This document shows, in pieces, positions 34,707-62,338 of a DNA stretch of 64,000 nt (its first letter is position 1; each line of letters opens with the position of its first letter). This DNA comes from an uncultured Desulfomonile sp. (GTDB lineage: Bacteria; Desulfobacterota; Desulfomonilia; Desulfomonilales; Desulfomonilaceae). The notes below the pieces were generated by a model. That model was not told where the DNA came from. It did no database searches and was given only the letters and a program-made list of their open reading frames with translations. Location: contig CAJBEZ010000008.1 in NCBI GenBank assembly GCA_903952205.1, forward strand, positions 1 to 64,000. Reading direction: 5' to 3'. The position numbers and the translations under genes were made by a program.

Positions 34707-34838
34707 ACTCAGGCCTAAAGATCGTGATAAATTGAAATTCGTTGCAGCAAAGATGATTGTTTGGCGCATGTTGTGGTAATGCATCCGGCGGGGTATATAT
34801 TGGGTAATTAGTGTGGGTTGATCGGAGCGATTCATAAC

Positions 34839-36827
34839 ATGCAGGATAAACTCCAAAATCTACGTCTTCCTCTGGATGGTCATATTGACCTGACTTACCG
34901 ATGCAATAACCACTGCCGGCACTGCTGGTTGTGGTTACCGGCGAACTTAAGAGAACAAAAAGAAGAACTAACTTTTGATGAAATAAAACGTATCGTTGAT
35001 GAAGCCCGGTCCATGGGTTGCCGTAAATGGAGTATATCCGGTGGTGAGCCAATGCTGCGGCCCGATTTCCCGGAAATCTTCGACTATGTTACCAGTAAGG
35101 CCGTCTCATATAGCCTCAACACCAATGGGACCCTCATTACCCCAGAAATGGCAACGATCCTGAAGCGCAAGGGAACGAAAATGGTCGCCCTATATGGGGC
35201 CACCAAGGAAACCTATGACCATGTCACCCGCCATCCCGGCGGCTTTGAAAAGGTCATGCGGGGCTTCAGTTACCTGAAGGAAGCAGGGGCCGGGTTCATA
35301 GTGCAGTTGATCCCTATGCGGGACAACTGGCATGAATGGGACGAGATGCAGGAACTGGCGCAGTCTCTGAGCAGTCATTGGCGTATCGGCGCCCCATGGC
35401 TGTATCTGTCGGCAAGCGGTGATCCGAGGGTAAATGAGGAGATCAGGAGGCAGAGGCTTGACCCGAAGGATGTGGTGGAACTCGATAAACCCGACATGAC
35501 TTATGATGAAAACATGGGGGGAGAAACCGGGCCCCATTCATGCCAAAACTGTGAAGATGACTATCTGTTCGCGAGTTGTATAAAGGGTCGTCGTGATTTT
35601 CACGTAGATCCCTATGGAAAGATGAGTTTCTGCGCTTTTCTGAAAGATCCAGCGTTTCGCTATGACTTACGCCAGGGTAGTTTTGAAGATTGCTGGGAAC
35701 GCTTTATCCCGTCGTTATCGGTCAAGGCGCAGCTTGGACGGGAATATGTCGAGAACTGTGGCGCCTGTGAAAACCGGCGGGACTGCCGGTGGTGCGCTGT
35801 GTACGCCTGGCTCGAACACAGGCGATTTTCCGCGCCTGTCGAACATCTGTGTGAAGTGGCGACTGCAAACAGTCGTTTCAAGAAAGACTGGAGGACCTCA
35901 CATCGCCGTTTTTATAAAATTGCAGGGATAACTATTCAGGTTGACAGCGATCTGCCCTTCACAGATCAGACCTTTCACCCCAAGTTTGCGGCCTTCCGCG
36001 TTGACGGACCCGGTCCGGACACGGTGAGCATACGTCATCACTTCAGTCTGCCCGACCTGACAGGCAAGGATTTGGGTCGCGAGATGTACCGCAAACCGCC
36101 CTGGGCCATATACAGGCAAAACTCCTCCTATATCTATCTCGGCATCTCGCCTCAACCTGACGACCCTACACTGCACAGGGCCGTGACTTTCAATAACGAC
36201 CATTCCAGGGCAAAGATATACAACAATCAGAAAGAAGTCTGGCTGAATGGCGATCTACATTCTCTGACGCTTTTCCCTTCGGACCAGGTCTTGATCGCCC
36301 GCCTCCTGGCTGACCGGCAGGGTTGTTACTTCCATTCCGCGGCCGCCATCGTAAATGGCGCTGGAATGATCTTTATTGGCCACTCAGAGGCCGGTAAGAC
36401 CACGACGACGCATTTGCTGACGGATGCGAGCCGACCCGGAAACGGCAGTTCGAACCTTCAGGTTGAGATCCTCTGCGATGACCGGAACATAGTCCGGCGC
36501 CTCGAGGACGGCTGGTGGGTTTACGGCACATGGAGTCACGGTGATAGCCCTCTAATCTCCGCTAACGGAGCGCCTATGCACGCGATCCTCTTCCTTGAGC
36601 AGGGCGACGAAAACACGCTGACCCCGCTTATTGACCGGAAAGAGATAGTCCGGCGCCTCCTGGGGTGTGTAGTCAAATCATTTGTCACAGCGGACTGGTG
36701 GAACAAAACCCTCGACACGATTGAGCGGATGTCACACGAGGCCCCCTGCTACGTCATGCGGTTCGACAGGACAGGAAAGATTGTGGAGGAGCTAGTCAAA
36801 CTGGCCGACCGTCCCTCGTTCATGTGA
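34839..36827 (+). CDS. radical SAM/SPASM protein fused to an HPr-kinase-like domain
   Basis: A 662-residue two-part protein. Residues 15 to 210 are a radical SAM domain with TYRCNNHCRHCW (CxxxCxxC for the 4Fe-4S/SAM cluster, Cys22, 26, 29) and the SISGGEPMLRPDF segment. Residues 230 to 345 carry a Cys-rich SPASM domain for auxiliary clusters (CQNC, CGACENRRDCRWC, HLCEV). From about residue 350 the chain turns into a fold like HPr kinase/PEP carboxykinase, with P-loop FIGHSEAGKTTTTHLL near 512 and CDDRNIVRR after it. HPr-kinase-like enzymes phosphorylate the C-terminal Ser in some lasso peptide pathways, but fusion to a radical SAM enzyme is unusual to me. I use the ATG at 34839; a TTG 21 bases upstream is possible. 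First gene of the peptide-modification cluster. Confidence 0.85.
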   Translation: MQDKLQNLRLPLDGHIDLTYRCNNHCRHCWLWLPANLREQKEELTFDEIKRIVDEARSMGCRKWSISGGEPMLRPDFPEIFDYVTSKAVSYSLNTNGTLITPEMATILKRKGTKMVALYGATKETYDHVTRHPGGFEKVMRGFSYLKEAGAGFIVQLIPMRDNWHEWDEMQELAQSLSSHWRIGAPWLYLSASGDPRVNEEIRRQRLDPKDVVELDKPDMTYDENMGGETGPHSCQNCEDDYLFASCIKGRRDFHVDPYGKMSFCAFLKDPAFRYDLRQGSFEDCWERFIPSLSVKAQLGREYVENCGACENRRDCRWCAVYAWLEHRRFSAPVEHLCEVATANSRFKKDWRTSHRRFYKIAGITIQVDSDLPFTDQTFHPKFAAFRVDGPGPDTVSIRHHFSLPDLTGKDLGREMYRKPPWAIYRQNSSYIYLGISPQPDDPTLHRAVTFNNDHSRAKIYNNQKEVWLNGDLHSLTLFPSDQVLIARLLADRQGCYFHSAAAIVNGAGMIFIGHSEAGKTTTTHLLTDASRPGNGSSNLQVEILCDDRNIVRRLEDGWWVYGTWSHGDSPLISANGAPMHAILFLEQGDENTLTPLIDRKEIVRRLLGCVVKSFVTADWWNKTLDTIERMSHEAPCYVMRFDRTGKIVEELVKLADRPSFM

Positions 36828-37061: not shown

Positions 37062-38225
37062 ATGACATACACAAAGAAACTCAAACCCCATGAATTTGTC
37101 TTTCCGGCGGGTAAAGGGCCGAGACTGTCGCAAATAGACATTGAACTAACGGAGCGCTGCAACAACAACTGTATCCACTGCCTCATAAATCGTCAGGAAA
37201 ACGACGAACACGCTCACTCCCGTGAGATGGATACGGCATTCGTAAAGGATCTCCTAAAACAGGCAGCGGACCTTGGCTGCCTCGCTGTCCGTTTCACCGG
37301 CGGCGAACCCTTGTTGAGAGAAGATTTCGCTGAATTATATATGTTTGCCCGCCGCCTGGGTATGCATGTTATTCTGTTTACCAACGGCCGCCTTATCACA
37401 CCTGAACTGGCCAGACTCTTTGCCAAATATCCACCGGGCAAACCTATAGAAGTCAGTGTATACGGTATGAGGCCTGAAAGCTATGACGCCGCTGCAGGGA
37501 AAAAAGGGGCTCACGCGGAATTTTGGCGTGGTATGGAACTGCTTCGCGAGCATAAGGTCTGGTTTGTGGTGAAGAGCAGTATATTGCCGCCCAACCGTGA
37601 TGACATGGTGGATTTTGAGCAGTGGCTGACAGAGATTGATGGCGAGGATAGCCAGCCACGCTATGCAATGAATTTTGATTTGAGGGCGCGGCGTGATGAT
37701 CCCGGAAAAAACGAACGTATCAGGCGGTTGAGGCTATCGCCGGAAGAGACGATGAGCGTGCTGAAGCGCAGCCCAATTTATGTGGATAGCATGCGGGAGT
37801 TCTGCGGGAAATTTATGAGTCCGTCCGGGAATAAACTGTTTTCCTGCGGCGCCGGTCACGGGACCTGCGTCGACGCTTATGGCAAGGCACAGATGTGCAT
37901 GGGCCTGCGAGATCCTGAAACAGTTGTTGACTTGCATGAAGCAACATTGAAGGCTGCTTTGGAACATTCATTTCCAAAACTGCGAGAAATCAGGGCGACC
38001 GATCCTGAATATCTGGCGCGTTGCGCCAGGTGCTTCCTGAAGGGCCTGTGCGAACAGTGCCCGGCCAAATCCTGGATGGAGCATGGCACGCTTGATACGC
38101 CGGTCGAGTATCTATGCGGCTTAGCCCATGCCCAAGCTCTATATCTAGGTCTGATCACAGAAAACGAAAAAGCGTGGGAAGTTGAGAATTGGCGTGAGCG
38201 GATTGATCTTTTCAGCCGAAAATAA
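37062..38225 (+). CDS. radical SAM/SPASM peptide-modifying enzyme 2
   Basis: A 387-residue enzyme. The radical SAM cluster motif is TERCNNNCIHC near residues 31 to 41, with VRFTGGEPLLREDF after it. The C-terminal SPASM region is rich in Cys (SCGAGHGTCVDAYGKAQMC, CARCFLKGLCEQC, YLCGLAHA). Such enzymes form thioether, C-C or epimerised bonds in ribosomal peptides. It differs clearly from the other two radical SAM proteins of the cluster, so it probably does a different step. It leads directly (21 bases) to the PqqD-like gene. Confidence 0.9.
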   Translation: MTYTKKLKPHEFVFPAGKGPRLSQIDIELTERCNNNCIHCLINRQENDEHAHSREMDTAFVKDLLKQAADLGCLAVRFTGGEPLLREDFAELYMFARRLGMHVILFTNGRLITPELARLFAKYPPGKPIEVSVYGMRPESYDAAAGKKGAHAEFWRGMELLREHKVWFVVKSSILPPNRDDMVDFEQWLTEIDGEDSQPRYAMNFDLRARRDDPGKNERIRRLRLSPEETMSVLKRSPIYVDSMREFCGKFMSPSGNKLFSCGAGHGTCVDAYGKAQMCMGLRDPETVVDLHEATLKAALEHSFPKLREIRATDPEYLARCARCFLKGLCEQCPAKSWMEHGTLDTPVEYLCGLAHAQALYLGLITENEKAWEVENWRERIDLFSRK

Positions 38226-38246: not shown

Positions 38247-38552
38247 ATGGATGACGTGACGTTCGATATGGTTTGTTTCCCCTCCGAGGACATTGTGGCA
38301 AGAGAAATCGAAGGCGAGTTGATCATTGTGCCGCTTGTCGCCGGTATCGGCGACACGGATGATGAACTCTATACGTTGAACGAGACAGGCAAAGCCATCT
38401 GGTCCAGATTAGACGGAAAAAGAACACTTCGGGCCATATCAGAGGAATTGGCTACGGAATTCAACGCTCCTCTCGAGGAAGTCGGAAAAGATTTGTCCGG
38501 TCTGATGAATGAGCTTATACGTCGGAAGATGATCCTCGTTCAGTCTGTTTGA
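38247..38552 (+). CDS. PqqD family peptide-binding (RRE) protein
   Basis: A 101-residue PqqD-like protein: an N-terminal beta part (DIVAREIEGELIIVPL) followed by the helical LNETGKAIWSRLDGKRTLRA and ISEELATEFNAPLEEVGKDL. In PqqD and related RRE domains this fold binds the precursor's leader peptide and presents it to the radical SAM enzyme. Strong ribosome site TAGGAGG. It sits between two radical SAM genes, supporting a role as common chaperone for the pathway. Confidence 0.92.
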   Translation: MDDVTFDMVCFPSEDIVAREIEGELIIVPLVAGIGDTDDELYTLNETGKAIWSRLDGKRTLRAISEELATEFNAPLEEVGKDLSGLMNELIRRKMILVQSV

Positions 38553-38586: not shown

Positions 38587-39561
38587 ATGAAATCAAAGGA
38601 TGTAATTGATTGTGATATTTCCTCATGCCCGTTCCGTATAGCAGATCAGAATCGCTGCTCCTTGCCGGACTGGCAGTATCACAGGATGGAATCTACGGGC
38701 GGCAGCCGCATCACGAATAGTCTCGTTGTTGAATCATTGGAAATCGGTCGGGCGCTTGCGGATCATGGCAGGGCCAAATTTCGCGCCGGTGGCACGTGCA
38801 TGTATCCGTGTGTCCAGCCCGGCGATACACTCCATATCGAAGCCCGCCCCATCGATGACATCCCTGTTGGCAGTATCACGGTGTTCCGCAGAAACGGCCG
38901 TCTCTTTGGACATCGGGCAATCGCCAGTGGTGTCGATGATGACGGACCATACATCGTCACACGTCCCGACCGTAGCGATCAAGGCAGCGATGGACCTATC
39001 CGTGAACAGAATATACTTGGTGTTGTTTCGAAGATCGATCGTAAGGGTAAACAGGTTTCCACGGCGCCAATTGCCCTCAGGGGCGCTGCAAGGGCGAGCG
39101 CCATGATTCTGGAGTGGTGGGACGTTAGTGCCCGGTCGCTGGTGGTCAGTGGGCTTGAAAGAGTTCAACGTTTGAGCGTTTATGAAAACATAGCGCCGCT
39201 CTGGTTCAAACTTTTTAGACCTCAGATCCGTTTTGAGGTACGAACCCCGCTCAAACCGAGGCAATCCCATGACTTGTACAGATTGTTTCCGCCAGATGAA
39301 TTCGATGTGTCTCTGCCCGTTCAGCAAGGGAAACCGGTTATGGAATGGACGTTGGCGCTCTATCTCAACGCCGGGAAATCCCCCGCAGCATGGGCAACCC
39401 TGATCCGCAGCCCGGAGGGATGCCCCATCGGGATGGGGTGGCATATTGCGAACAGGAGAATGCAGCTCCGTTATCAAGGGATTGGGCTGGACAATGCCGT
39501 TACCGGCAAGGCAGGCGAGATTTTGGCCCGAACTGGTATGGCCATCATACAGGAGGCGTAA
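38587..39561 (+). CDS. signal-peptidase-like protein with Cys replacing Ser, and GNAT-like C-terminus
   Basis: A ~324-residue protein. Residues 65 to 165 look like an S24/S26 signal peptidase fold: RAGGTCMYPCVQPGDTL aligns with the GxSMxPxLxxGD motif. Cys71 stands where the catalytic Ser should be. GHRAI (His109) matches the Ser/His type of signal peptidases, and TRPDRSDQGSD gives nearby Asp residues. No membrane helix is visible. From about residue 195 on, WATLIRSPEGCPIGMGWHI and MQLRYQGIGLDNAV resemble a GNAT acetyl-CoA loop. The N-terminus has four extra Cys. The start is uncertain (ATG 38587 or TTG 38560). It may be a cytosolic processing protease/acyltransferase of the pathway, or a non-catalytic relative. 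Confidence 0.7.
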   Translation: MKSKDVIDCDISSCPFRIADQNRCSLPDWQYHRMESTGGSRITNSLVVESLEIGRALADHGRAKFRAGGTCMYPCVQPGDTLHIEARPIDDIPVGSITVFRRNGRLFGHRAIASGVDDDGPYIVTRPDRSDQGSDGPIREQNILGVVSKIDRKGKQVSTAPIALRGAARASAMILEWWDVSARSLVVSGLERVQRLSVYENIAPLWFKLFRPQIRFEVRTPLKPRQSHDLYRLFPPDEFDVSLPVQQGKPVMEWTLALYLNAGKSPAAWATLIRSPEGCPIGMGWHIANRRMQLRYQGIGLDNAVTGKAGEILARTGMAIIQEA

Positions 39562-40668
39562 ATGTATCCCACCTCAACCATGCAAATCCAGGATTTCCCG
39601 CTCTGGGACAAACTCAAGGAGCGGCGGGCCATCATGTCATTTGACCTGGAGATTACAGCCCGCTGCAATCTCCACTGCGGCCATTGTTATATCAATCTCC
39701 CCGCTAACGACCAGGAGGCCCGGGCAAAGGAATTGACCGTTCAGGAGATAGGGGGAATCGCCGATCAGGCGGTTGCCCTTGGGGCGGTTTGGGCGCTTAT
39801 CTCCGGCGGAGAACCACTCCTGCGTCCGGACTTTCCTGAAATTTACATGACCCTCAAGAGAAAGGGACTCCTCGTTTCTGTATTCACAAATGCGACCCTG
39901 TTGCGGGAGGATCACATTTCATTGTTGAAAAAATACCCGCCCAGGGATATCGAAGTTACGGTGTACGGCGCCTCTTCTGAGACGTACGATAGTGTCACCC
40001 GACGTCCGGGCGCCTTTGCCGCCTTCACGCATGGTCTGAACCGACTCCTCGAAAGCGGCGTCAAGGTCCGCCTCAAGGCAATGGCCCTACGTTCGAATTT
40101 CCACGAATTGCCTGAGATTGCGGCCTTCTGCCGATCCCATACGAAGGATTACTTTCGTTTTGACCCCCAGTTGCATTTGCGTTTCGACAGGGATGAGGGA
40201 CGCAACGCGGAAATCATGGCTGAACGCCTGACGCCTGAGGAGATCGTAGCGCTCGAGAGGGCCGATGGCGACCGTTTTACAGCCTTACAGAAAAACTGCG
40301 ACACACTGATCAGCGATGAGTTTACCCACTACGGCTGTGATCATCTCTTCCACTGCGGGGCAGGCAATGGCAGCTTCAATGTCGGTTACGACGGAAAATT
40401 CAGGCTATGTTCTTCCCTGTGGGCGCCGCAGACACTGTATGATCTGCGGAAAGGGACACTGCGGGATGCATGGGAACAGTTTGTGCCGCAGGTCCGGGAT
40501 ATGCGCTCGCAACGCCCTGAGTTCCTGGACCGGTGCCGTCGGTGCTCCATAATCAATCTATGCCTGTGGTGTCCGGCCCATTCATATCTCGAAACGGGCG
40601 AAATGGACACTGTTGTAGATTACTTTTGCCGGGTCGCGCACGCACGAGCAGCGGCCATAAGTGGCTGA
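39562..40668 (+). CDS. radical SAM/SPASM peptide-modifying enzyme 3
   Basis: A 368-residue enzyme. ITARCNLHCGHCYINLP (CxxxCxxC near residues 34 to 41) and ALISGGEPLLRPDF mark the radical SAM domain. The SPASM region has YGCDHLFHCGAGNGSFNVGY, CRRCSIINLCLWC and YFCRVAHA. It starts right after the stop of the signal-peptidase-like gene, with its ribosome site (AGGAGG) inside that gene, so the two are coupled. The region around the third Cys set resembles enzyme 2, suggesting common ancestry. Confidence 0.9.
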   Translation: MYPTSTMQIQDFPLWDKLKERRAIMSFDLEITARCNLHCGHCYINLPANDQEARAKELTVQEIGGIADQAVALGAVWALISGGEPLLRPDFPEIYMTLKRKGLLVSVFTNATLLREDHISLLKKYPPRDIEVTVYGASSETYDSVTRRPGAFAAFTHGLNRLLESGVKVRLKAMALRSNFHELPEIAAFCRSHTKDYFRFDPQLHLRFDRDEGRNAEIMAERLTPEEIVALERADGDRFTALQKNCDTLISDEFTHYGCDHLFHCGAGNGSFNVGYDGKFRLCSSLWAPQTLYDLRKGTLRDAWEQFVPQVRDMRSQRPEFLDRCRRCSIINLCLWCPAHSYLETGEMDTVVDYFCRVAHARAAAISG

Positions 40669-43462: not shown

Positions 43463-44707
43463 ATGGCAAAGCCCGGCAAAGAAATTATGAATCGGATAGA
43501 AACGCCTGATCAGCTTGACGAGTTTCTACGTTTCAAATCCACGAAGAGCTGGCTTGCCCTGGCTTCGATGGCCGGTATTGTTACACTGGCGGTCATCTGG
43601 GGAATTTTCGGTGAGGTGCAGACAAAGGTCGAGGGCACAGCCATCCTTTTGGCGGAGGGAGGGTTGTTTCAAATCGTCGCCAAGGAGTCCGGCCATCTCC
43701 AGGAATGTAAGGTTCGTTCAGGTGACATCATTCAGGAAGGACAAATCGTAGCTGTTGTCAACAATCCACAGCTTGAAAACCAGATCAACACGAAGCAGGC
43801 GGAAATCGATTCAATAATAGCAAGCCGTTTTAAACAGTCTCAACTGATTCTCGCCAGGACAGACGCTCAAAAGCGGGTGTTTGAAACACAACGGCTGCAA
43901 TTGATACAGAGGAAGGTGTTCATTGAACGGCGTCTCAGGGCCCTGGACGAGCGGGTAAGAACTTATGAGGAACTACTGAAGGAAGGAGCGGCCACTCGCC
44001 AAGCGTATCTCAACGCCAAACTGGAATATGAAAAAACCCTGGAAGATGGGGCGTCGGTCGACACCGAGCTGAACGAGCGAAATTTGAAAAGGCGAGAGCT
44101 TGAAGCCAGTGTTCACGATCAGCTATTTCAACTAAAGTATAAACTCAGCCTGGCGCAAGGCGAGCTTTCGGCCCTGCAAAAAAAAATGGATCTCACCACC
44201 TCGATCAGAAGCGATTTTCATGGTCGGGTTATTGAGGTATTGGCCCGGCAGGGTCAGCGCGTTCTGGAGGGTCAGGCCATCGTGACCTGTGATAGGGCTC
44301 TCACTCACCTGGAGGTTGAGATATTCGTCCCCGCGGCCGAAGGAAAGAAGATCCTTCCAGGAATGAGAATACAGGTTGTGCCGTCCACTGTTCAGCGTGA
44401 GGAGTACGGGTTCATGACCGGGAAAGTGTCTAGCGTTGATATATTCCCTATCTCCAGGGACGCCCTGCTTTCGTGGCTGAAGAATGACAAACTTGTTGAT
44501 TCCGTCATGCAAAAGGGCCCCTTGTTATCTGTCTTAGGATCGCTCGATCGTGACCCTTCCACCAAAAGCGGCTTCCATTGGTCATCACTTAAGGGATCGG
44601 AGGTGGAACTCACCGCAGGGACCATGGGTAAAGCCGAAGTGGTGGTTTCGAAGCAGCCGCCGGCCGCTTTGGTATTACCAGCGATTAAGAAGTGGTTGGG
44701 CTCCTGA
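43463..44707 (+). CDS. NHLM-type export membrane fusion protein (HlyD-like), cassette 1
   Basis: A 414-residue adaptor. One membrane helix (residues 30 to 48) is followed by a lipoyl-like beta part (VAKESGHLQECKVRSGDIIQ), a coiled coil of about 130 residues (QLILARTDAQKRVF to KLSLAQGELSALQKK) and a second lipoyl half plus beta barrel (VPSTVQREEYGFMTGKVSSV). This layout is that of the secretion protein of NHLM bacteriocin systems. It should join the inner-membrane ABC transporter to TolC. Its stop is one base from the next gene's ATG. Confidence 0.88.
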   Translation: MAKPGKEIMNRIETPDQLDEFLRFKSTKSWLALASMAGIVTLAVIWGIFGEVQTKVEGTAILLAEGGLFQIVAKESGHLQECKVRSGDIIQEGQIVAVVNNPQLENQINTKQAEIDSIIASRFKQSQLILARTDAQKRVFETQRLQLIQRKVFIERRLRALDERVRTYEELLKEGAATRQAYLNAKLEYEKTLEDGASVDTELNERNLKRRELEASVHDQLFQLKYKLSLAQGELSALQKKMDLTTSIRSDFHGRVIEVLARQGQRVLEGQAIVTCDRALTHLEVEIFVPAAEGKKILPGMRIQVVPSTVQREEYGFMTGKVSSVDIFPISRDALLSWLKNDKLVDSVMQKGPLLSVLGSLDRDPSTKSGFHWSSLKGSEVELTAGTMGKAEVVVSKQPPAALVLPAIKKWLGS

Positions 44708-44708
44708 A

Positions 44709-46913
44709 ATGATTGCCCGTCATCTTCAGTCCGTCAAAAAGTATCTGCGGTCCTTATTCAAACCCCAGAACCGATTTGTTACCCCTACTGTCATTCAGAT
44801 GGAATCGATCGAATGCGGAGCGGCCGCTTTATGCATGATTGCGGCCTACTACGGACGCTGGGTGACCCTGGAACAGATGCGGATCGATTGCGGCGTTTCT
44901 CGTGATGGCAGCAAGGCCGGCAACATCCTGAAGGCGGCGCAAGGATATGGTCTGATCGCAAGTGAGCGTCATCCTGAGATCGAAGATCTCAAGAAGCTTC
45001 CCTTCCCGCTGATAGCCTTGTGGAATTCGAATCACTATGTGGTTGTTGAAGGTTATGGACCTAAGAAATGGTATCTTAACGACCCTAGCGGGGGGCCAAG
45101 AGACGTGGCGCCGGAGGAATTCGACAAGAGCTTTAGCCGAGTCGCAATGACCTTCCAGCCTGGACCCGACTTCCAGCCGGGCGGAGAGAAGCCCAGCACG
45201 CTGAGGGCGCTGCGGAAGAGGGGGAAGGGTCTCGGCCTGGAACTGCTCTACGCCTTTATCGCCGGTTTGATGCTGGCGCTTCTAGGGCTTGTTATCCCAG
45301 CGTTCACGAAAATCTTCGTGGACGAGTTCATGCTGGGTAATACTTCGTACTACGTTCGCCCGCTGCTTATTGCCATGGGGATTGCCATCTTCATGCAGGC
45401 TTGTCTCACGTGGCTCAGGGAAAGTGTGTTGCTTCGTCTGGAGACAAAACTGGCATTGCTGACTTCCGCCAAATTTTATCTTCACCTGTTAAAACTTCCG
45501 GTGACATTTTTCTTTCATCGTTATGCAGGCGAGGTAGGTTCACGAATCTCATTAAATGACTATATCGCCTCTATTCTTTCGGGACAGCTCGCAACCAGCA
45601 TTCTCTCCTGTTTCACCGCCGTGTTCTTTTTTCTTGCCATGCTCCAGTACGATACATGGCTAAGTCTTTTTGCCGGAGTAATTGCCGTCATTAATCTTCT
45701 AGCGCTCCAGTTTGTGGCCAGAAAACGTAAGGATATAAACAAACGAAACCTGGAGAAATCAGGGAAGTCCTATGGCGTCGGTATGTCAGGGATGATGAAC
45801 ATTGAAACCATAAAAGCCACGGCAGGTGAATCGGACTTTTTTGCCCGCTGGGTCGGCTATCAGGCTTTGCGCGTGAACGCCCAGCAGGATTCCGGAGCGT
45901 TTTCTCAACTGTTTGCCGTCGTTCCCGCCCTTCTTACGAGCTTCAGTTCTATGGTGATCCTTGGGGTCGGTGGAATCAGAATCATGGACGGTTTTATGAG
46001 CATCGGGGGGCTGGTCGCCTTTCAGATGCTTATGAACAGTTTCAATAGTCCTTTTTCCACGTTGCTCTCTCTCGGCGCTCAGGTTCAGGAACTGGAAGGG
46101 TCTGTTCAAAGGCTCGACGATGTTCTCAACCATGGCATTGATCCACAGCTAAGCCGTAGTGAGAAGGTCCCTGTTTCCCCGCTCGAACCCGCTAAGCTGA
46201 CTGGCCACTTATATATTAGGAATCTCTCCTTCGGGTATAGCAGATTCGACAAACCTCTCATCCAGGATTTCAGCCTGGTGTTGACACCCGGAAGGCGAGT
46301 AGCCCTCGTTGGAGGATCCGGAAGCGGCAAGTCGACGGTTGCAAAGCTCGTTGCGGGAATCTATGAACAGTGGAAAGGCGATATCCTGTTTGACGGCAAA
46401 TCCCGGTCGGAGATCCCTCGAAAGGTGATGACCAACTCCCTCGCCATGGTCGACCAGGACATCATGCTGTTTGAAGGCACAGTGCGAGAGAACATCTCCA
46501 TGTGGGACGATACCATGACGGATGAGGTTGTTATCCGTGCGGCCCAGGACGCTTGCATGCATGACGATATTGCGGCGGCGCAGGGCGGGTACGATCACGT
46601 TCTGGACGAAGGCGGCCGAAACCTGAGCGGAGGACAGCGCCAACGCATGGAAATTGCCAGATCACTGGCAATGGATCCAACCATACTGATCCTGGATGAG
46701 GCGACCAGCGCTCTTGATCCCCTGACGGAAAAAATGGTTGACGACAATATAAGAGTCCGCGGGTGCGCCTGCCTGATTGTCGCCCATCGGCTGAGCACCA
46801 TAAGAGACTGCGACGAGATACTTGTTATGGAGAGCGGCGGCGTGGTCCAACGTGGGACTCACGAAGACATGGCCCATATCGATGGACCGTACGCCCGTTT
46901 GATCAAGGAATAA
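44709..46913 (+). CDS. C39 peptidase/ABC exporter (NHLM-type), cassette 1
   Basis: A 734-residue bacteriocin-type exporter. The N-terminal C39 peptidase has the nucleophile Cys in QMESIECGAAALCMIAAYYG, His in SNHYVVVEG and Asp in LNDPSGGPR, so all three catalytic residues are present. Six membrane helices follow, then an ATPase with Walker A GGSGSGKST, signature LSGGQRQRMEIARSLAMDP and Walker B ILILDEATSALD. It cleaves leaders after GG/GA-type sites during export. The ATG at 44709, two bases after the HlyD stop, starts the protein at its normal N-terminus. Confidence 0.92.
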   Translation: MIARHLQSVKKYLRSLFKPQNRFVTPTVIQMESIECGAAALCMIAAYYGRWVTLEQMRIDCGVSRDGSKAGNILKAAQGYGLIASERHPEIEDLKKLPFPLIALWNSNHYVVVEGYGPKKWYLNDPSGGPRDVAPEEFDKSFSRVAMTFQPGPDFQPGGEKPSTLRALRKRGKGLGLELLYAFIAGLMLALLGLVIPAFTKIFVDEFMLGNTSYYVRPLLIAMGIAIFMQACLTWLRESVLLRLETKLALLTSAKFYLHLLKLPVTFFFHRYAGEVGSRISLNDYIASILSGQLATSILSCFTAVFFFLAMLQYDTWLSLFAGVIAVINLLALQFVARKRKDINKRNLEKSGKSYGVGMSGMMNIETIKATAGESDFFARWVGYQALRVNAQQDSGAFSQLFAVVPALLTSFSSMVILGVGGIRIMDGFMSIGGLVAFQMLMNSFNSPFSTLLSLGAQVQELEGSVQRLDDVLNHGIDPQLSRSEKVPVSPLEPAKLTGHLYIRNLSFGYSRFDKPLIQDFSLVLTPGRRVALVGGSGSGKSTVAKLVAGIYEQWKGDILFDGKSRSEIPRKVMTNSLAMVDQDIMLFEGTVRENISMWDDTMTDEVVIRAAQDACMHDDIAAAQGGYDHVLDEGGRNLSGGQRQRMEIARSLAMDPTILILDEATSALDPLTEKMVDDNIRVRGCACLIVAHRLSTIRDCDEILVMESGGVVQRGTHEDMAHIDGPYARLIKE

Positions 46914-46973
46914 TGACAGGATTGCCCCGCTCACATGAGTGAGGTTCCTGCTGTTTGAATCGAGGAAACACAT

Positions 46974-49889
46974 TTGACACGTCCGATTGCCCACCATGTC
47001 CGCGAAGTTGGAGAGGCTTTAGAGGTAGGAGCCAACCAACCATTTTGGTTGGGTGAAGCTGACTCGTTCTGGATGGTGGAACAGGGAACCGTTGATATCT
47101 TTTCCGTCAGAACAGAAAAAGGACAACACGAGGGGCGGCGAAGACGTTTGTGCCGCGTAAGGGCCGGCGAATTTATTTTCCCTTTGAAGCCCAGCGAGGG
47201 TGACCACTTCTTGAGTTTTCTCGGGGTGCCGGGGCCTGATACCTGTTTAATCAGGACCAACGTGGCTCATTTGGAGTCCATGCAGAAAGACCCGGTTCTC
47301 TCTGAAGCTTTAGCCTTGGCCGCCGACACCTGGGTCTCTGTCTTATCAACCTCACTCAGTATCGGCCGACTGGTCCCTAAATATTCACAGGAAATCAGGA
47401 ACGGACAGACACTTGATTTGGGGCCTGGCCAGACAGTCCACTGCGCCGCCGGCGCTCTGTGGATTGTCCAGAGTGACGGAACCACACGGTACCTTGGTCG
47501 AGATGACCTGCCTTTGATCCGGCCGGACTATTATACGCCGCTTTGCAGTCATACCTGGCTTACAGCAGTCGAAAAAACCCGGCTGCAGGCGTTCGCTTTG
47601 TCCAAGCTTCTGATGCAGGGAGTCGCCCTTATGCGTTGCCTCTCTCAGTTCCACGTTCAGGTTTTCAAATTGACAATTCTGGAGCTGGAAGCGGTAGACA
47701 GCATCGAAAGAAATCGCCTTCTGGCGGGCATCGACCACGACCACCAAGTTGCGCAAAGCGCATTGGGCCACCTTTCAGCGGTTCTCGGCAAGGATAGCGT
47801 TGGACTTGAGGCGACCACGAGCGACCCACTTTTCAACGCCTGTCAGATTGTGGGGGAGGCGCAGGGCATCAAAATCGCGCGACCGGTGGACTCTTCTGGA
47901 ATTCTGGATATGGATGACGCCGTATCACGCATAGCGCATGCGTCAGGTTTCCGGACCAGAGCAATCAAGCTCAAAGGAAAGTGGTGGACGGATGATCACG
48001 GGCCGATCCTTGGGACCTTGTCAGGGGATGGGTCGCCAGTAGCGATACTGCCCGACCGAAAGGGACGGTATCATATCCATGATCCTTCTTCCCACTCGCA
48101 AGTTCTTGTCGACGCTTCGGTAAATGAGACCTTGGACCCCGGTGCGTTTGTGTTCTGCCGACCGTTTCCGGACGGACGACTTACCCCATTGTCACTGTTC
48201 CTTTTCGCCTTGGCCGGTCATCGAAAAGACATTCGGTTGATCATTCTTTTGGGGCTCGGCTCCGGTCTACTGGCGACTTTTGTTCCCGTGGCTACAGGTG
48301 TGTTGTATGACTCCGTCATTCCCAGTTCGAACAGGACTCTTCTGTTTCAGATGGTGGCCGGCCTGGCGGCGGGGTCCTTTGTTTCGGCCATATTCCAGCT
48401 TGTTCAGGGACTGGCGCAACTCAGGTTTCTTGGTGGGATGGAAGCGACACTTGAAATCGCCGTATGGGACCGCCTCCTGAATCTACCGGCGGTCTTCTTC
48501 AGGCGATTTTCCGCGGGTGATCTGGCCAATCGCTCCTCATCCGTTTACCAGATTCAGCAGTATATTTCAGGAGCGGTGCTCGGGTCGCTACTCTCTGGTG
48601 TGTTCGGCTCGTTTAACATAGCTCTGCTATTCTACTACTCTCCGATTCTCGGAATCCTGGGATTGGCGATTCTGTTTGTTTCCGCCTTGATACTCGCTGT
48701 ATTGCTTGTGATACAGCTCAAATATCAAGCGCCTCAATTTAAGCTGTATGGAAAAATCGCCGGTCTGAATCTTCAGATTTTGACGAGCATAACGAAACTC
48801 AGGGCAAACGCTTCCGAATTGAGGGCTTTCAAAAAATGGTCCCTCACGTATTCTCAGCTCAAAGAGCTTACCGTCAAATATCGCAAGTTGGGTATGGCAG
48901 CCTCGATTTTTCAATCTTCGCTGCCTCTTGTTATTTCCCTTGCGACTTTCGCTGCGCTGGCCCGGATGTGGAACCCCGATGATCCATTTATGCAAACGGG
49001 GCAGTTTCTTGCCTTCACCGCTGCTTTGACAGCGGTCATTGCCTCTGTGATGTCCGCTCTGTCGAACCTTACCAGGGTCCTCTCCGTAATTCCGCTTTAT
49101 GAGCGAATGCAGCCCATATTGGAGCAGGCGCCTGAGACACAAACCTCAAAGACAGCGCTCGGCCAGCTTACCGGCGCCTTGGAGATGGCTCACGTCAATT
49201 TCCAATACAAACCCGATGAACCGGAAGTCCTCAAAGATGTGAATTTCAAGGCGGATCCAGGCGAATTCATTGCCCTTGTGGGACCTTCCGGATCAGGCAA
49301 GTCGACCATACTAAGACTTCTCATAGGGTTCGAAACACCTGGATCAGGCTCGATATACTATGATGGGAAGATGCTTGCGGAACTGGACATTCAGGCGGTA
49401 AGACGTCAGTTGGGTGTGGCGCTCCAGGGGGGACAAGTGCTCTCCGGAACCATTTTTGAGGCTATTACCGGCGGATCTCGGCTCACTATGGAAGACGCAT
49501 GGGAGGCTGCCCGCATGGCCGCTGTTGACAAGGATATCGAAGCAATGCCGATGGGCATGGCCACGGTTATCGGTGAACAGGGGGCAGGCATATCAGGAGG
49601 TCAGCGCCAGAGGCTTCTCATTGCCCGGGCTATCGTGAGGAAGCCCCGGATAGTGTTGTTTGATGAGGCTACCAGCGCTTTGGATAACGTCAGCCAAGCC
49701 CTGGTCAGCAAGAGCCTCGAAGGGCTTCAGGCCACTCGCATCGTGATCGCTCATCGCCTGAGCACCATTAGAAACGCCAACCGCATTTATGTGCTGGTGC
49801 GCGGCGAAGTAGTAGAATCAGGCTCTTATGAACAACTCATGGCCAAGGGCGGGGTTTTCTCAGAGTTGGCGAAACGGCAAATTGCCTGA
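46974..49889 (+). CDS. second NHLM-type ABC transporter (no peptidase), cassette 1
   Basis: A 971-residue ABC protein. The first ~380 residues form a cytosolic region typical of the second ABC subunit of NHLM systems (with KWWTDDHGPILGT), in place of a C39 domain. A six-helix membrane part follows, then an ATPase: Walker A GPSGSGKST, signature ISGGQRQRLLIARAI, Walker B IVLFDEATSALDN. It probably pairs with the C39 transporter as a heterodimer. The start is a TTG with GAGGA 8 bases upstream; no in-frame ATG fits better. Confidence 0.88.
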   Translation: MTRPIAHHVREVGEALEVGANQPFWLGEADSFWMVEQGTVDIFSVRTEKGQHEGRRRRLCRVRAGEFIFPLKPSEGDHFLSFLGVPGPDTCLIRTNVAHLESMQKDPVLSEALALAADTWVSVLSTSLSIGRLVPKYSQEIRNGQTLDLGPGQTVHCAAGALWIVQSDGTTRYLGRDDLPLIRPDYYTPLCSHTWLTAVEKTRLQAFALSKLLMQGVALMRCLSQFHVQVFKLTILELEAVDSIERNRLLAGIDHDHQVAQSALGHLSAVLGKDSVGLEATTSDPLFNACQIVGEAQGIKIARPVDSSGILDMDDAVSRIAHASGFRTRAIKLKGKWWTDDHGPILGTLSGDGSPVAILPDRKGRYHIHDPSSHSQVLVDASVNETLDPGAFVFCRPFPDGRLTPLSLFLFALAGHRKDIRLIILLGLGSGLLATFVPVATGVLYDSVIPSSNRTLLFQMVAGLAAGSFVSAIFQLVQGLAQLRFLGGMEATLEIAVWDRLLNLPAVFFRRFSAGDLANRSSSVYQIQQYISGAVLGSLLSGVFGSFNIALLFYYSPILGILGLAILFVSALILAVLLVIQLKYQAPQFKLYGKIAGLNLQILTSITKLRANASELRAFKKWSLTYSQLKELTVKYRKLGMAASIFQSSLPLVISLATFAALARMWNPDDPFMQTGQFLAFTAALTAVIASVMSALSNLTRVLSVIPLYERMQPILEQAPETQTSKTALGQLTGALEMAHVNFQYKPDEPEVLKDVNFKADPGEFIALVGPSGSGKSTILRLLIGFETPGSGSIYYDGKMLAELDIQAVRRQLGVALQGGQVLSGTIFEAITGGSRLTMEDAWEAARMAAVDKDIEAMPMGMATVIGEQGAGISGGQRQRLLIARAIVRKPRIVLFDEATSALDNVSQALVSKSLEGLQATRIVIAHRLSTIRNANRIYVLVRGEVVESGSYEQLMAKGGVFSELAKRQIA

Positions 49890-50124
49890 GCATCGCATCA
49901 GAATCCTACAATACCTCCCGCCTGCTTTTATCCCAGATCAGAAAAACCAGGTTCTAAACTGCAATTCAATTTGACATGTTCACGAAAAGTAAGCTTTAAT
50001 GATACTTTGGCGCTTTTTTTGTAGCTGCGGCGCTCTAATGGATAAGTGGCGTACATGGCCGAAAAAGCATGCGTCCTCAATAGCAGGGTAGCCTCGCCGT
50101 TCATATCTTCGAAAGGCTTATTGG

Positions 50125-51558
50125 ATGGGTTTGCCTCGTTTTATCTTATGGCTGTCATGTTGCCTTGTACTATGGGCGGCCACTTTCGTTCCGGCAGCGG
50201 AGGATAGCTTCCCCAGCGGCTCACAGGTAAACAGACAAAGCTCCTTGAAGCCACCGAAGCGGGATCAACCCCGGTTTACCCTTGAGCAGGCGGTCCAGAC
50301 TACCTTGCAGCGAAATCCAAAGGTCGGTGAAGCCCTCGCACGGATCAGGCAAAGGGTGTGGGGTGAGCAGTCTGTGTATTCGGATTTTTTCCCTTCCGCC
50401 ACAGTCGACTACGCCGGAACATGGAACAGATACAAGGTTGGGGACGGTGGATTCGGGCCGCCTGATCACGTGTCTCGGGGTAGAACTAAATATATCAGGG
50501 ATAATTTCTTCAATAGTGATTACCCTTACAGGATTGATCCATGGAAGCGCTTTAGGGGAGCTGTGACCGTGACTCAGCCTCTTTACCAGGGTGGGAAGAC
50601 GGTGAGCGACGACAATTCAGCGAAACTCCAGGTGACCGTTTCAGAGTTACAGTTGCAGGTCGATCGGCAGGACCTCATTCTGGCGGTATACCAGACGTAT
50701 TACGACATGACGCTCGCTGAACTGCTGCTCGGGGTGGCCAGTGAGTCCATATCCAACCTCGAAATACTCAAGAATCTTAATGAAAAATTTCTTCGGGCCG
50801 GGACAGTAACCAAGACTGACGTTCTGACAACTGAAGGTTCACTTTACAGGGCTTACGTGGGCCAAAGACTGGTAATGAAATATATCGAGGCCGCCCGGGC
50901 AAAGTTGAACAACCTCCTGTCCAACCCTCCGGAGACCCCCTTAGAAATAGTGCAGGATTACAAGCAGCGATCGAATCCTTACAGTATTCCGCAGATTTAT
51001 AACACAGCCATGGCCAACCGTGATGAGATCGTCCAGGCCACACTTGAAATCCGGAGAGGGATTGAAGCGACCAAGGCGGCCAATGCCGCTTTGCTGCCAA
51101 AAGTATCACTGTCAGCCGTAGGGACGCGAACGAACGATGACTGGAACGTTGTCGACCCGGAAGGAAACAACGATTGGACGCTCACAGGGACGCTCACATG
51201 GGCTTTCAACATGTTCAAGTTCAATTCAAATGTAAAGGAATCAAGGGAAGCTGTTAACGAAAAGTTCTTCGCGAGGCAGAGGCTGGTTCAGGACATTTCC
51301 CAGAATGTGAAGCTTGCCTATCTGGACATGAAAACCTCGGAGCGGGATATCGATGATTTCCGGAGAATGGTAGCTATCAGATCCGAGAACTTCAGGCTTT
51401 TCCAGATGAGATACCAGCAGGGCGACGTGAGTTTCACCGAAGTCATCATAGCCGAGAACGATTATGTTAACAGCAAGGTTGATTACTACACGGCCCTGGT
51501 CAATTACAGGATCAATCAGGCGATACTGGAAAGACGAATGGGAATACTGAGGCGATGA
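50125..51558 (+). CDS. TolC family outer-membrane efflux protein, cassette 1
   Basis: A 477-residue outer-membrane channel. A signal peptide (residues 1 to 24, ending PAAE) is followed by two repeats of long helices and short barrel strands: FTLEQAVQTTLQRNPKVGEA, GAVTVTQPLYQGGKT, LILAVYQTYYDMTLAELLL and LTGTLTWAFNMFKF. It should complete the tunnel for the cassette 1 exporter. Close in layout to the TolC of cassette 2; both share the phrase DDWNV(V/L)DPEG. Confidence 0.9.
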   Translation: MGLPRFILWLSCCLVLWAATFVPAAEDSFPSGSQVNRQSSLKPPKRDQPRFTLEQAVQTTLQRNPKVGEALARIRQRVWGEQSVYSDFFPSATVDYAGTWNRYKVGDGGFGPPDHVSRGRTKYIRDNFFNSDYPYRIDPWKRFRGAVTVTQPLYQGGKTVSDDNSAKLQVTVSELQLQVDRQDLILAVYQTYYDMTLAELLLGVASESISNLEILKNLNEKFLRAGTVTKTDVLTTEGSLYRAYVGQRLVMKYIEAARAKLNNLLSNPPETPLEIVQDYKQRSNPYSIPQIYNTAMANRDEIVQATLEIRRGIEATKAANAALLPKVSLSAVGTRTNDDWNVVDPEGNNDWTLTGTLTWAFNMFKFNSNVKESREAVNEKFFARQRLVQDISQNVKLAYLDMKTSERDIDDFRRMVAIRSENFRLFQMRYQQGDVSFTEVIIAENDYVNSKVDYYTALVNYRINQAILERRMGILRR

Positions 51559-52682: not shown

Positions 52683-52886
52683 ATGACAGACAGCAAGAAA
52701 CAATGGGTTAAACCGGAACTGATCGTTCTGGTCAGGAGTAATCCGGCGGAAGCGGTGTTGGGGGCGTGTAAGGGTTCAGGGTGGGACCCTCAGGTGCCGG
52801 CGATGAGGGCTAACCAATGTAATGAGAGTGAGATGCGGGGCAATGGGTCGATTTGTGTGGCATGTATGGGTATTGCGGCGAGCTAA
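52683..52886 (+). CDS. candidate RiPP precursor peptide, 67 residues, four Cys
   Basis: A short gene with a strong ribosome site (TGGAGG, 5 bases before the ATG). The N-terminal part is charged and hydrophobic (KQWVKPELIVLVRSNPAEAV), as expected of a leader bound by a PqqD-type protein. LGA at residues 26 to 28 could be a C39-type GA cleavage site. The predicted core of 39 residues would hold all Cys (29, 46, 58 and 61), several Gly/Ser and the C-terminus GIAAS. It sits between two NHLM export cassettes in the same orientation as both. The role as precursor is inferred; no radical SAM signature by itself proves it. Confidence 0.75.
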   Translation: MTDSKKQWVKPELIVLVRSNPAEAVLGACKGSGWDPQVPAMRANQCNESEMRGNGSICVACMGIAAS

Positions 52887-53379: not shown

Positions 53380-53578
53380 GAATTCTCCCCTATCGAAATC
53401 ACTTTTCTGGTAGAGAACTTTGTTGTGTCTTGTAGTCTCGAACCTTATTACGAATTTTTATTACGACAACACCATACAGGGAAGGTCCTACGGTGTCGAA
53501 TTCATTTGAAATTCAGCCCCGGTTCTTCTATGTTCAATATTATTGGATGGGAAACCAAGTTCATTAGAGTGCAGGATT

Positions 53579-54826
53579 ATGGAACAGCTATTCAGACAAG
53601 ATGTCATGGATCGACTTAACTCCCCGGAACGTCTAGATGAACTATTAAAGATAACCTCGCCTCGAGGCTGGATAGCATTGTTATCCCTGGCGCTGGTAAT
53701 CCTTACAGCTCTAGCCTGGGGCATATATGGCACGATTTCTACCAAGGTGGATGGTTCAGGCATATTCATCGACCCGGAGGGAGTTCACCCTGTAATATCG
53801 CTCGGTTCAGGAAGGCTTAGTTCGATCCGGGTCAAAGTCGGCGACATTGTAGAAGTCGGTCAGTTGGTGGCTACTATGACCAACCCTGATGTCCAGAAAC
53901 AACTGGACAATCAGAAGATCATTTTATCAGTCCTGGAAAAGGAGTATGCCCAGGAAAAGAATCTGATGGAGAAGGAGTCTGAGTCCAAGCGGCGAGTTCT
54001 TGGGGCCCAAAGAGACAATATAAACAGTTCAATCAAGATTCAGGATAGCAAGGCTAAATGGCTTAAAGATAGGCTTAGCGCATACGAAGACCTGTTCGCT
54101 GAGGGGTATGTCCTCAAACAGAATGTTGTCCAGACCAGGCTGGATCTGGATAACACCATGCTTGAGTCCGAGAAACTCCAGAATGAACTGGGAAACAATC
54201 ACCTTCAGGAAGTAGAACTTCAGGAAAGCCTCCAGCAGAGAATTTTCAAACAGAAATTCGACATTGAACAGGCTAAAGGCAAAGAGGAACTCCTTGAACG
54301 TCAGCTCGAAGAGTCAACTCAGGTTTTTAGCCCGATCAAGGGCACTGTGATCTCACTGGAAGCAATGGAAGAATCCATGATCCAGACAGGAATGACAATA
54401 CTTAATGTGGAACCCCTTGAACCAGGTCTGAAAGTCTTCATGAGCGTTTCAGCGATGAAAGGCAAAAAAATTCAGCCGGGCATGACTGCGGAAATTACCC
54501 CGACCACTGTTAAGAGGGAAGAATACGGATATATATTTGGAACGGTCATAGACATTAGCGAATTTCCAATTACTGCTGATAGCCTCATGAGATTGTTCAA
54601 CAATCGTAGTTTTGTGGAGGACGCCATCAGGCTTGGTCCTCTAACCTCGGTCAACATAGAGCCGGTGAAGGACACAACCACGCGGAGTGGGTTCAAATGG
54701 TCCAGCCAGAAGGGGGCAAAGGTGCTGGTTACTGTGGGCACGCTTTGTTCCGGCGAGGTTGTGGTCAAACTTCAGTCCCCAATATCATTGGTGATTCCAA
54801 AACTGAAAGAATGGATAGGCCAATAG
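53579..54826 (+). CDS. NHLM-type export membrane fusion protein (HlyD-like), cassette 2
   Basis: A ~415-residue paralogue of the cassette 1 adaptor: an N-terminal helix (residues 28 to 48), the lipoyl half SLGSGRLSSIRVKVGDIVEV, a coiled coil of about 130 residues and the end region TPTTVKREEYGYIFGTVIDI, which closely matches its counterpart. I start at the ATG at 53579 by comparison with cassette 1, since a frame 12 codons longer has no match there. The next gene's TTG lies one base after the stop. Confidence 0.85.
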   Translation: MEQLFRQDVMDRLNSPERLDELLKITSPRGWIALLSLALVILTALAWGIYGTISTKVDGSGIFIDPEGVHPVISLGSGRLSSIRVKVGDIVEVGQLVATMTNPDVQKQLDNQKIILSVLEKEYAQEKNLMEKESESKRRVLGAQRDNINSSIKIQDSKAKWLKDRLSAYEDLFAEGYVLKQNVVQTRLDLDNTMLESEKLQNELGNNHLQEVELQESLQQRIFKQKFDIEQAKGKEELLERQLEESTQVFSPIKGTVISLEAMEESMIQTGMTILNVEPLEPGLKVFMSVSAMKGKKIQPGMTAEITPTTVKREEYGYIFGTVIDISEFPITADSLMRLFNNRSFVEDAIRLGPLTSVNIEPVKDTTTRSGFKWSSQKGAKVLVTVGTLCSGEVVVKLQSPISLVIPKLKEWIGQ

Positions 54827-54827
54827 C

Positions 54828-57026
54828 TTGCTGGACTCTATAAAAAACTGGTTCCTCACACAAAATACAGCTAAACCCCGGCGTGTCCGTACTCCAACCG
54901 TACTGCAAATGGAGGCCGCTGAATGCGGAGCGGCTTGTATGACCATGATTCTGGCCCACTATGGCAGATGGGTCCCGCTGGACAAGGTTCGGCTGGACTG
55001 CGGCGTTTCCCGTGATGGGAGCAAAGCGAGTTACGTTGTCAAAGCGGCTGAAGGCTATGGCCTGTATGCGCAGGGATTACGGGTAAGCCCTGAAAGTATT
55101 AAGGAACTCAAATTCCCGCTAATAGCGTTCTGGAATCTTAACCACTTCGTGGTAGTCGAGGGTTTTGACAAAAAGCGCTGGTTTTTGAACGATCCTGCTG
55201 AAGGCCCGCGCACCGTCACGTATGAAGAATTCGACAGAAGTCTCAGTGGAGTGGCTCTTACCTTTGACAAGAGTCCGCAATTTCAGGAAGGAGGGCAGAA
55301 ACCCAGGCTTTTCAATTCCTTGAAGAAAAGGGCAATCGGGATGTGTCCGGCTCTGGCTTACGCCCTTCTGACTGGGCTACTCCTTACATTTATCGGACTC
55401 GTCATCCCCACCTTCACAAAAATATATGTCGACCACTACCTGATGGACAGACAGGTGGATTGGCTCAAAGCCCTGTTGTGGATAATGCTGATCACAATTT
55501 TCCTGAATATGGGTGTCACATGGCTACAACAGAACATTCTGCTGAGATTAAATTTTAAGCTCGCACTAAGCAGTTCGTCGGCGTTCTTTAACCACCTGTT
55601 GCGTCTTCCTGTTGATTTCTTTTTTCAACGATACAGCGGCGAGATTCAGTCCAGGGTAGCGCTCAATGATAGAGTAGCTTCACTATTATCGGGGCAGCTA
55701 TCCTCTACCATGTTGCACTGTCTTACTTCCGTCTTCTTCGTTGCAGTCATGCTTAGTTACAGTGTTTTCCTTACCGCAATTGGCGTTGTCGGAGCGATTC
55801 TCAACCTAATGGCGCTTGAAGGGGTTTCCCGCAAACGAAGAGACCTTAACAAACGCCTGTTGCAGGAAAAAGGCAAACTGACCGGCGTGACTATGTCCGG
55901 CATTTACATGATAGAGACACTCAAATCAGCAGGAAGGGAGGACGACTTCTTTGCTCGCTGGTCGGGCTATCAGGCAAAGACTACAAGCGCAGGCCAGGAA
56001 CTTGGTTTTTGGTCGGCAATGCTGGACAGGGTGCCTCCTTTTCTGGCGTCATTGAACGCCATCTCCGTTCTTGGATTTGGAGGTGTTCTGGTGATGCAGG
56101 GTTTTTTGACTTTGGGTGACATGATGGCGTTTCAGGCTTTATTGTCAGGTTTTATCCAACCTATCAACAACCTGGTAGGGCTGGGAAGTCAGTTGCAGGA
56201 AATCGAAGGAGACCTTGGCAGGCTTGACGATGTTTTGGCAAATCCTGTCGATGAGGAACTCGCAAAGGCCGAAGCCGTAAAACTGACACCGGATCTTGCT
56301 GAAAAACTCAATGGAAAAGTTGAAATCAACAACATTTCTTTTGCCTACGGCCGGTTTGACAAACCTTTCATCAACCAGTTCAGCCTTACCATAAATCCCG
56401 GAAGCAGGGTCGCTCTGGTCGGAGCTTCCGGCAGCGGTAAATCCACTCTCGGAAATCTCGTCGCCGGATTATACACCCCGACTCAGGGAGAAATCCGGTT
56501 TGACGGCAAACTGAGGTCGGAAATCCCCCGGCTGGTTATGGCCAATTCCCTTGCCAAGGTGGATCAGGACGTTATTCTTTTTGAGGGCTCAATCAGGGAC
56601 AACATTGCTCTATGGAATGACAGCGTCACTGACACGGCAATTATTCAGTCGGCCAAGGACGCATGTATCCACGATGTGATCAGTTCCCGGCCACTGGGGT
56701 ATGAGGACCAAATCATTGAAGCGGGAAGGAATTTCAGCGGCGGCCAACGGCAACGTCTGGAAATAGCCAGAGCTTTGGCTCTGGAGCCGTCAATTCTGAT
56801 CCTTGATGAGGCGACCAGCGCCCTCGATCCGCTCACGGAAAAAATCATAGATGATAATTTACGTCGCAGAGGCTGTTCATGCCTGATTATTGCGCACAGA
56901 CTCAGCACAATACGTGATAGCGATGAGATCATTGTTTTAAAAGGCGGCCAGGTTATCGAAAGAGGCTTGCACGATGAGCTTGTGGCACTCAATGGCTACT
57001 ATGCCGAATTGCTGAAGGATACATAG
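54828..57026 (+). CDS. C39 peptidase/ABC exporter (NHLM-type), cassette 2
   Basis: A 732-residue paralogue of the cassette 1 exporter, strongly similar along its length. The C39 domain retains Cys (QMEAAECGAACMTMILAHYG), His (LNHFVVVEG) and Asp (LNDPAEGPR). The ATPase has GASGSGKST, FSGGQRQRLEIARALALEP and ILILDEATSALD. A TTG start is needed to cover the N-terminus; it is coupled to the HlyD-like gene. The active site is intact, so this is not a degenerate copy. Confidence 0.92.
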   Translation: MLDSIKNWFLTQNTAKPRRVRTPTVLQMEAAECGAACMTMILAHYGRWVPLDKVRLDCGVSRDGSKASYVVKAAEGYGLYAQGLRVSPESIKELKFPLIAFWNLNHFVVVEGFDKKRWFLNDPAEGPRTVTYEEFDRSLSGVALTFDKSPQFQEGGQKPRLFNSLKKRAIGMCPALAYALLTGLLLTFIGLVIPTFTKIYVDHYLMDRQVDWLKALLWIMLITIFLNMGVTWLQQNILLRLNFKLALSSSSAFFNHLLRLPVDFFFQRYSGEIQSRVALNDRVASLLSGQLSSTMLHCLTSVFFVAVMLSYSVFLTAIGVVGAILNLMALEGVSRKRRDLNKRLLQEKGKLTGVTMSGIYMIETLKSAGREDDFFARWSGYQAKTTSAGQELGFWSAMLDRVPPFLASLNAISVLGFGGVLVMQGFLTLGDMMAFQALLSGFIQPINNLVGLGSQLQEIEGDLGRLDDVLANPVDEELAKAEAVKLTPDLAEKLNGKVEINNISFAYGRFDKPFINQFSLTINPGSRVALVGASGSGKSTLGNLVAGLYTPTQGEIRFDGKLRSEIPRLVMANSLAKVDQDVILFEGSIRDNIALWNDSVTDTAIIQSAKDACIHDVISSRPLGYEDQIIEAGRNFSGGQRQRLEIARALALEPSILILDEATSALDPLTEKIIDDNLRRRGCSCLIIAHRLSTIRDSDEIIVLKGGQVIERGLHDELVALNGYYAELLKDT

Positions 57027-62231: not shown

Positions 62232-62313
62232 GATAATCGCCTCCGCTTCTAATAAAAATGTCTAACATAATCGAAAATGAGGCCAGTCTTCTAGTTCGTA
62301 GATGAACATAGTC

Positions 62314-62338
62314 AATCTCCGCACATTATGCGGAGATT
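62314..62338. other. 10-bp perfect hairpin
   Basis: AATCTCCGCA and TGCGGAGATT flank a 5-base loop. No T-run follows on either strand. It lies between the DUF3887-like gene and the tandem secreted genes and could be a terminator or a mobile/regulatory repeat. Confidence 0.4.

Follow-up and report, generated by a model that had tools for sequence, protein, structure and literature searches.

S26-type peptidases are classed as serine enzymes, and the locus analysed here raises the question of what is done by an S26-like protein of an uncultured Desulfomonile sp. that carries a cysteine at the position of the catalytic serine. The window, that is, the whole stretch of DNA that was analysed (64,000 nucleotides), places its gene in a RiPP cassette made up of an HprK-like kinase, three radical SAM/SPASM enzymes, a PqqD-type RiPP recognition element (RRE) and the peptidase itself (Table 1). 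Because of this HprK kinase and PqqD/RRE context, the purpose of the protease is sought in peptide maturation, and the protein is rather probably an RRE-dependent cytosolic RiPP leader peptidase of SipW-type S26 fold in which Cys71, His109 and Asp128 replace the Ser/His/Asp triad.

Table 1. Features of the window discussed in the text.
Feature	Position	Strand	Length	Basis or remark
rSAM1, radical SAM/SPASM fused to HprK-like kinase domain (~35883-36827)	34818-36827	+		ScmC-type match weak
rSAM2, radical SAM/SPASM enzyme	37062-38225	+		
PqqD-type discrete RRE	38247-38552	+		Pfam PqqD, E 1.9e-14
Cys-type SipW/S26-like putative leader peptidase	38587-39561	+	324 aa	
Cys71 codon (TGC), catalytic Ser position	38797-38799	+		
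rSAM3, radical SAM/SPASM enzyme	39562-40668	+		ATG directly after the peptidase stop codon
NHLM-type exporter set 1 (probable exporter)	43463-49889	+		
Set 1, HlyD	43463-44707	+		NCBIfam TIGR03794/TIGR03796 matches above cut-off for HlyD and C39-ABC
Set 1, C39-ABC	~44742-46913	+		NCBIfam, above cut-off
Set 1, second ABC	46974-49889	+		similarity within window
Precursor peptide MTDSKKQWVKPELIVLVRSNPAEAVLGACKGSGWDPQVPAMRANQCNESEMRGNGSICVACMGIAAS	52683-52886	+	67 aa	profile matches, alignment
NHLM-type exporter set 2 (probable exporter), downstream of precursor gene	53543-59978	+		similarity to set 1

The peptidase frame opens with the ATG at 38587 (an in-frame TTG lies upstream at 38560), 34 bases after the PqqD stop codon. 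The protein consists of an N-terminal helix (residues ~46-60), the S26 domain (~60-160), linker helices and a truncated GNAT-derived tail (~213-324). The GxSMxP, HR and D boxes of the SipW/Sec11 type follow one another in the expected order on an S26/S24 fold, as GTCMYP (Cys71), FGHRAI (His109) and TRPDR (Asp128), with the box-1 serine replaced by cysteine. The Ser nucleophile is thus absent, as is the membrane anchor typical of secretory signal peptidases, and by hydropathy the protein is soluble (top 19-residue Kyte-Doolittle mean, 1.06). The sequence-only reading of this DNA had placed Cys71 at the S26 Ser position, taken the His from GHRAI and the Asp from TRPDRSD and seen no membrane helix, and in all of this it was borne out. 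The precursor peptide escaped that reading, which also left the HprK kinase and the PqqD/RRE context unconnected to the protease. A read error or a pseudogene as the origin of Cys71 was ruled out, since the cysteine is common to 14 distinct proteins and the frame is open.

Pfam and NCBIfam barely detect the protein, the best match being TIGR02228 (signal peptidase I; E 2.1e-4, under the cut-off). A profile built from a small homologue alignment (A5) was more informative against the PDB: its matches there include catalytic subunits of SEC11 (6.6e-10) and acetyltransferases of the GNAT type (about 1e-8). The protein was also modelled with AlphaFold2 (mean pLDDT 87.7; numbering of the model starts at protein residue 32), and model residues 29-129 match S26/S24 peptidases with Z up to 11.3 (rmsd 3.1, 94 aligned). 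The highest of these matches is to SipA (4n31) of Streptococcus pyogenes, a signal-peptidase homologue required for pilus polymerisation. This opens the way to a different reading, in which the S26 domain is protease-dead and acts like SipA, as a scaffold or chaperone that would keep the complex of precursor and RRE in place for the radical SAM enzymes.

Conservation of the triad bears directly on this alternative. Homologues were collected from GTDB contigs and from whole-genome searches that covered the phylum of the window, Omnitrophota and the order to which a Smithellaceae genome belongs; in the contig search, homologues were retrieved with an alignment as query and none with a single protein. 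Class-level searches over 63 genomes gave no additional family member. Among 96 distinct homologues, the His and the Asp are each invariant (96/96); at the nucleophile position 82 carry Ser, the other 14 carry Cys, and no third residue occurs. The residue before the Asp is Gly in 77 of the 82 Ser proteins but P, Q, S or R in every one of the 14 Cys proteins, an association (Fisher p 5e-13) that is overstated because the sequences are related. Such a loss of Gly in all Cys forms could mean a changed active site and, together with the SipA match and the degenerate state of the fused GNAT, it speaks for a scaffold. A dead enzyme, however, should lose its Cys, His and Asp, which are instead invariant through deep divergence, and the nucleophile is exclusively Ser or Cys; moreover, when a set of neighbouring genes was scanned with Pfam, no second candidate for a peptidase turned up within the cassettes of the relatives. 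A scaffold role is therefore unlikely.

In the peptidase tree, built with two alignment columns, including the nucleophile, left out, 12 of the Cys proteins group together as a single clade (SH-aLRT 96), within which Cys71, His109 and Asp128 do not vary. This clade-wide triad supports the earlier idea of a soluble variant of the Ser/His/Asp subtype, with Cys in place of Ser, that works in a peptide pathway. Because one of the two remaining Cys proteins (L090) is placed close by and the other (L039) elsewhere in the tree, the Cys nucleophile may have arisen more than once. The separately placed S26-like protein (L039:1276-1893, - strand) has its Cys in GRCMIP and carries EKRDS in place of KGD.

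The surroundings of the peptidase gene are shared with its relatives. Their gene order is (rSAM1-)HprK, rSAM2, precursor, PqqD, S26, rSAM3 and MsbA-like exporter, with variations and missing members, and most relatives whose DNA extends far enough have the peptidase flanked by PqqD and rSAM3. The rSAM1-HprK fusion recurs in L059, L140 and L142, and rSAM3 is mostly 56-69% identical to its counterparts in the relatives that share the cassette. The peptidase slot is taken by a Ser-type protein that lacks a GNAT in L003, L007, L010, L066 and L140, the last of which is a genome of the window's own family. MsbA-like exporters were found in L053-L055, L059 and L066, and NTP transferase matches in L140, L059 and L146; neither was seen in the cassette of the window, which has two NHLM-type exporter sets in place of the MsbA-like exporter. 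Each set is followed by a TolC-like gene (43463-51558 and 53543-61775), and the second of these by three small genes on the - strand (61794-63573) for apparently secreted proteins of no recognised family. Elsewhere in the window, two near-duplicate ORFs on the - strand (4925-5350 and 7045-7602) resemble by eye the nucleic-acid-binding piece of DNA polymerase III alpha.

The Omnitrophota genome G491 (L142, 3578-9984) holds a whole Cys-type cassette with three precursor genes; its enzymes are 54-63% identical to those of the window and its peptidase 32%, and transfer between phyla is possible. A full Ser-type cassette with a precursor is found in L066 (5098-11412), a record named Euryarchaeota archaeon ADurb.BinA087 that is possibly misbinned. 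A YcaO-like protein with TPR is represented in L059 by its C-terminal part, upstream of the cassette (L059:1-903).

A candidate substrate, a conserved peptide, was first found among small ORFs that lie between the genes of five relatives. Profile search extended it to 39 distinct copies, of which 5 are cut by a contig end, and the family is absent from Pfam and NCBIfam and matches the PadeA family weakly. Its members share a WxxPxL leader, VLxxCK, a Cys-rich core and a C-terminal Ser, the latter in 32 of the 34 copies not cut by a contig end. In the group with the leader consensus WxxPxLxVLxRxxPEExVLxxCK, a Glu stands 15 residues after the Trp in all 27 members. Since the cut in LppA, as counted from its motif, falls 15 residues after the Tyr of YxxP (PMC13381572), cleavage of the precursors may, by analogy, follow this Glu. 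In the precursor of the window the two residues would be Trp8 and Glu23, and a cut next to VLxxCK is the alternative. The precursor adjoins Ser-type and Cys-type cassettes alike. A second member in the genome of the window (G000:C5, L139:2864-3103, + strand) lies on another contig, of 5.9 kb, which has no cassette genes, and adjoins a PAS/histidine kinase gene.

In the window, the precursor gene is located about 13 kb from the peptidase gene and beside C39-containing exporters, which could cut in its stead, and this counts against a leader peptidase. The NHLM exporter C39 domains would then remove the leader, and the Cys-S26 protein would act later, for instance in trimming of the core. The precursor lies between the two exporter sets, with their C39-ABC proteins, and carries VLGA/C, a sequence that resembles a C39 site. 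Yet the Gly is missing at the matching -2 position in most other precursors, and relatives with the same cassette (among them L054 and L059) export through MsbA-like ABC proteins without a C39 domain, so that leader removal by the exporters in the window is quite improbable.

The trees of the cassette genes are in conflict. With the nucleophile residue masked, the peptidase tree of 14 cassettes unites the Cys forms (99/99), whereas the rSAM3 tree of the same 14 cassettes, a set that leaves out L010, rejects a single Cys group (p-AU 0.016). The rejection obtained with an earlier rSAM3 set (p-AU 0.006) included one badly trimmed row, L010, and both rejections are moderate and based on few sequences. 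Because the peptidase tree has a single Cys group that the rSAM3 trees reject, the peptidase gene appears to have been replaced or exchanged, as Ser and Cys versions, within one cassette slot. Such a replacement suggests in turn that Ser-type and Cys-type peptidases do the same job.

Exchange of Ser for Cys could also have changed the reaction. In engineered subtilases, a Ser to Cys replacement favours aminolysis over hydrolysis, and the Cys71 enzyme might likewise cut the leader and pass the acyl-enzyme to an amine, yielding a cyclised or tailed peptide. To our knowledge, no peptide ligase or cyclase reaction is known for the S26 fold. The Ser-type cassettes, with their closely related rSAM3 and the same kind of precursor, argue for one common reaction, which makes a ligase or cyclase very improbable.

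The C-terminal tail had been read as a GNAT-like domain and the protein as a protease joined to an acetyltransferase. The ancestry stood: model residues 182-293 match GNAT chains with Z up to 9.3 (rmsd 3.3, 90 aligned, a partial fold), and a complete fused GNAT is present in the Ser-type relatives L021 (Pfam Acetyltransf_1, 4.5e-17), L004, L019, L063 and L071. The acetyltransferase did not. The motif QGIGLD departs from the acetyl-CoA loop [RQ]xxGx[GA], and the protein ends about 30 residues later, truncated after helix 3. The loop is intact in 13 of 15 Ser-type fusions, against 1 of 12 Cys-clade proteins. In the window protein, L053-L058 and L108, no more than about 50 residues follow the loop, while L018, L024, L059 and L089 retain at least 75; a Cys form of 200 residues (L060) is too short for a GNAT. 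An active acetyltransferase was accordingly rejected on the broken loop and the truncation, and a bifunctional enzyme, for which the GNAT fold match and the intact motifs of fused Ser-type relatives would speak, is extremely improbable. The tail is a degenerate remnant of a GNAT and probably non-catalytic.

Taken as a leader peptidase, the Cys enzyme would act in the following way. The WxxPxL leader of the precursor would bind the PqqD-type RRE, the Cys-rich core would be modified by the radical SAM/SPASM enzymes, and the HprK-like domain would phosphorylate the C-terminal Ser. Docking on the helix that precedes the S26 domain would allow the RRE to present the leader. With His109 and Asp128 as its activating residues, Cys71 would attack the peptide bond, and the core would be released for export. 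What speaks for this reading is the invariance of the His and the Asp, the restriction of the nucleophile to Ser or Cys, the Cys clade, the fold match and the sequence match to SEC11, the shared slot, the precursor, the tree conflict, the exporters without a C39 domain in L054 and L059, the absence of a competing peptidase among the genes scanned in the relatives' cassettes and the parallel with LppS set out below.

With the rest of the triad unchanged, a conserved Cys clade would amount to a natural swap of the nucleophile in the S26 fold, one that can be tested side by side in cassettes of the Ser and Cys types that match closely. Through the precursor family, defined substrates become available for cassettes in which radical SAM/SPASM enzymes occur together with an HprK-like kinase. 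Text searches of the open-access literature found no report of the SPASM/PqqD/HprK/peptidase combination, of a natural Cys signal peptidase or of the precursor strings. The Cys clade, the radical-SAM/HprK/S26 cassette and the precursor family thus appear to be new relative to the literature and libraries compared.

Several known systems share parts of this arrangement. SipW/SEC11-type signal peptidases (Ser/His/Asp) have the same fold, motif order and triad positions but differ in their Ser nucleophile, their membrane anchor and their setting outside a RiPP cassette. SynChlorMet systems (Scm; NCBIfam TIGR04248-TIGR04251) likewise combine PqqD, an HprK-like protein (ScmC) and paired radical SAM/SPASM proteins; membership was rejected, because the matches to ScmC, ScmD, ScmE and ScmF are weak and none comes near its curated cut-off. 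The precursors resemble paeninodin-type lasso peptides (PadeA/PadeK) in their WxxP leader (PMC13381572) and C-terminal Ser, whereas the window cassette has radical SAM enzymes and shows no lasso cyclase or B2 peptidase. Because the paeninodin-type kinase phosphorylates precisely the C-terminal Ser (PMC9266682), phosphorylation of this residue is likely, by analogy, in the precursor family as well.

The closest parallel is LppS, the SipW-like leader peptidase of linear polyphosphorylated peptides (LPP) in Paenibacillus alginolyticus (PMC13381572, May 2026), which depends on a discrete RRE and is inactivated by each of S29A, H68A and D93A. The two share the SipW-like S26 domain, the triad positions (with 38 residues from Cys71 to His109 here and 39 for the equivalent spacing in LppS), the helix before the domain and the partner RRE; they differ in the nucleophile, Ser29 against Cys71. 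The LPP clusters, described from Bacillota, also have the HprK-like kinase, a precursor leader with aromatic-xxP and an MsbA-like exporter, the last in relatives of the window only, while the main text of PMC13381572 names no radical SAM enzyme or GNAT. Of the features by which LPP clusters are recognised, an SpI-like peptidase, a discrete RRE and an HprK-like kinase are all present in the window, whereas neither the NTP transferase nor the MsbA-like exporter was seen in its cassette; the LPP leader, YxxPxVLxHQxIxFETxxS, is absent from the precursor family, and WxxP takes the place of YxxPxVLxHQxIxFET, the sequence cleaved by LppS, which weighs against the leader-peptidase reading. The phosphate, too, is on Ser3 of the core in LPP, against the conserved C-terminal Ser here. 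With a Cys for the S26 Ser and without the LPP leader, the window peptidase is filed in neither group. In all likelihood it nevertheless works like LppS, and the job proposed for the Cys enzyme is the one recently shown for this serine-type cousin (PMC13381572), which would extend LppS-like leader removal from Bacillota to Desulfobacterota and Omnitrophota, and also to an archaeon should that record prove to be correctly binned.
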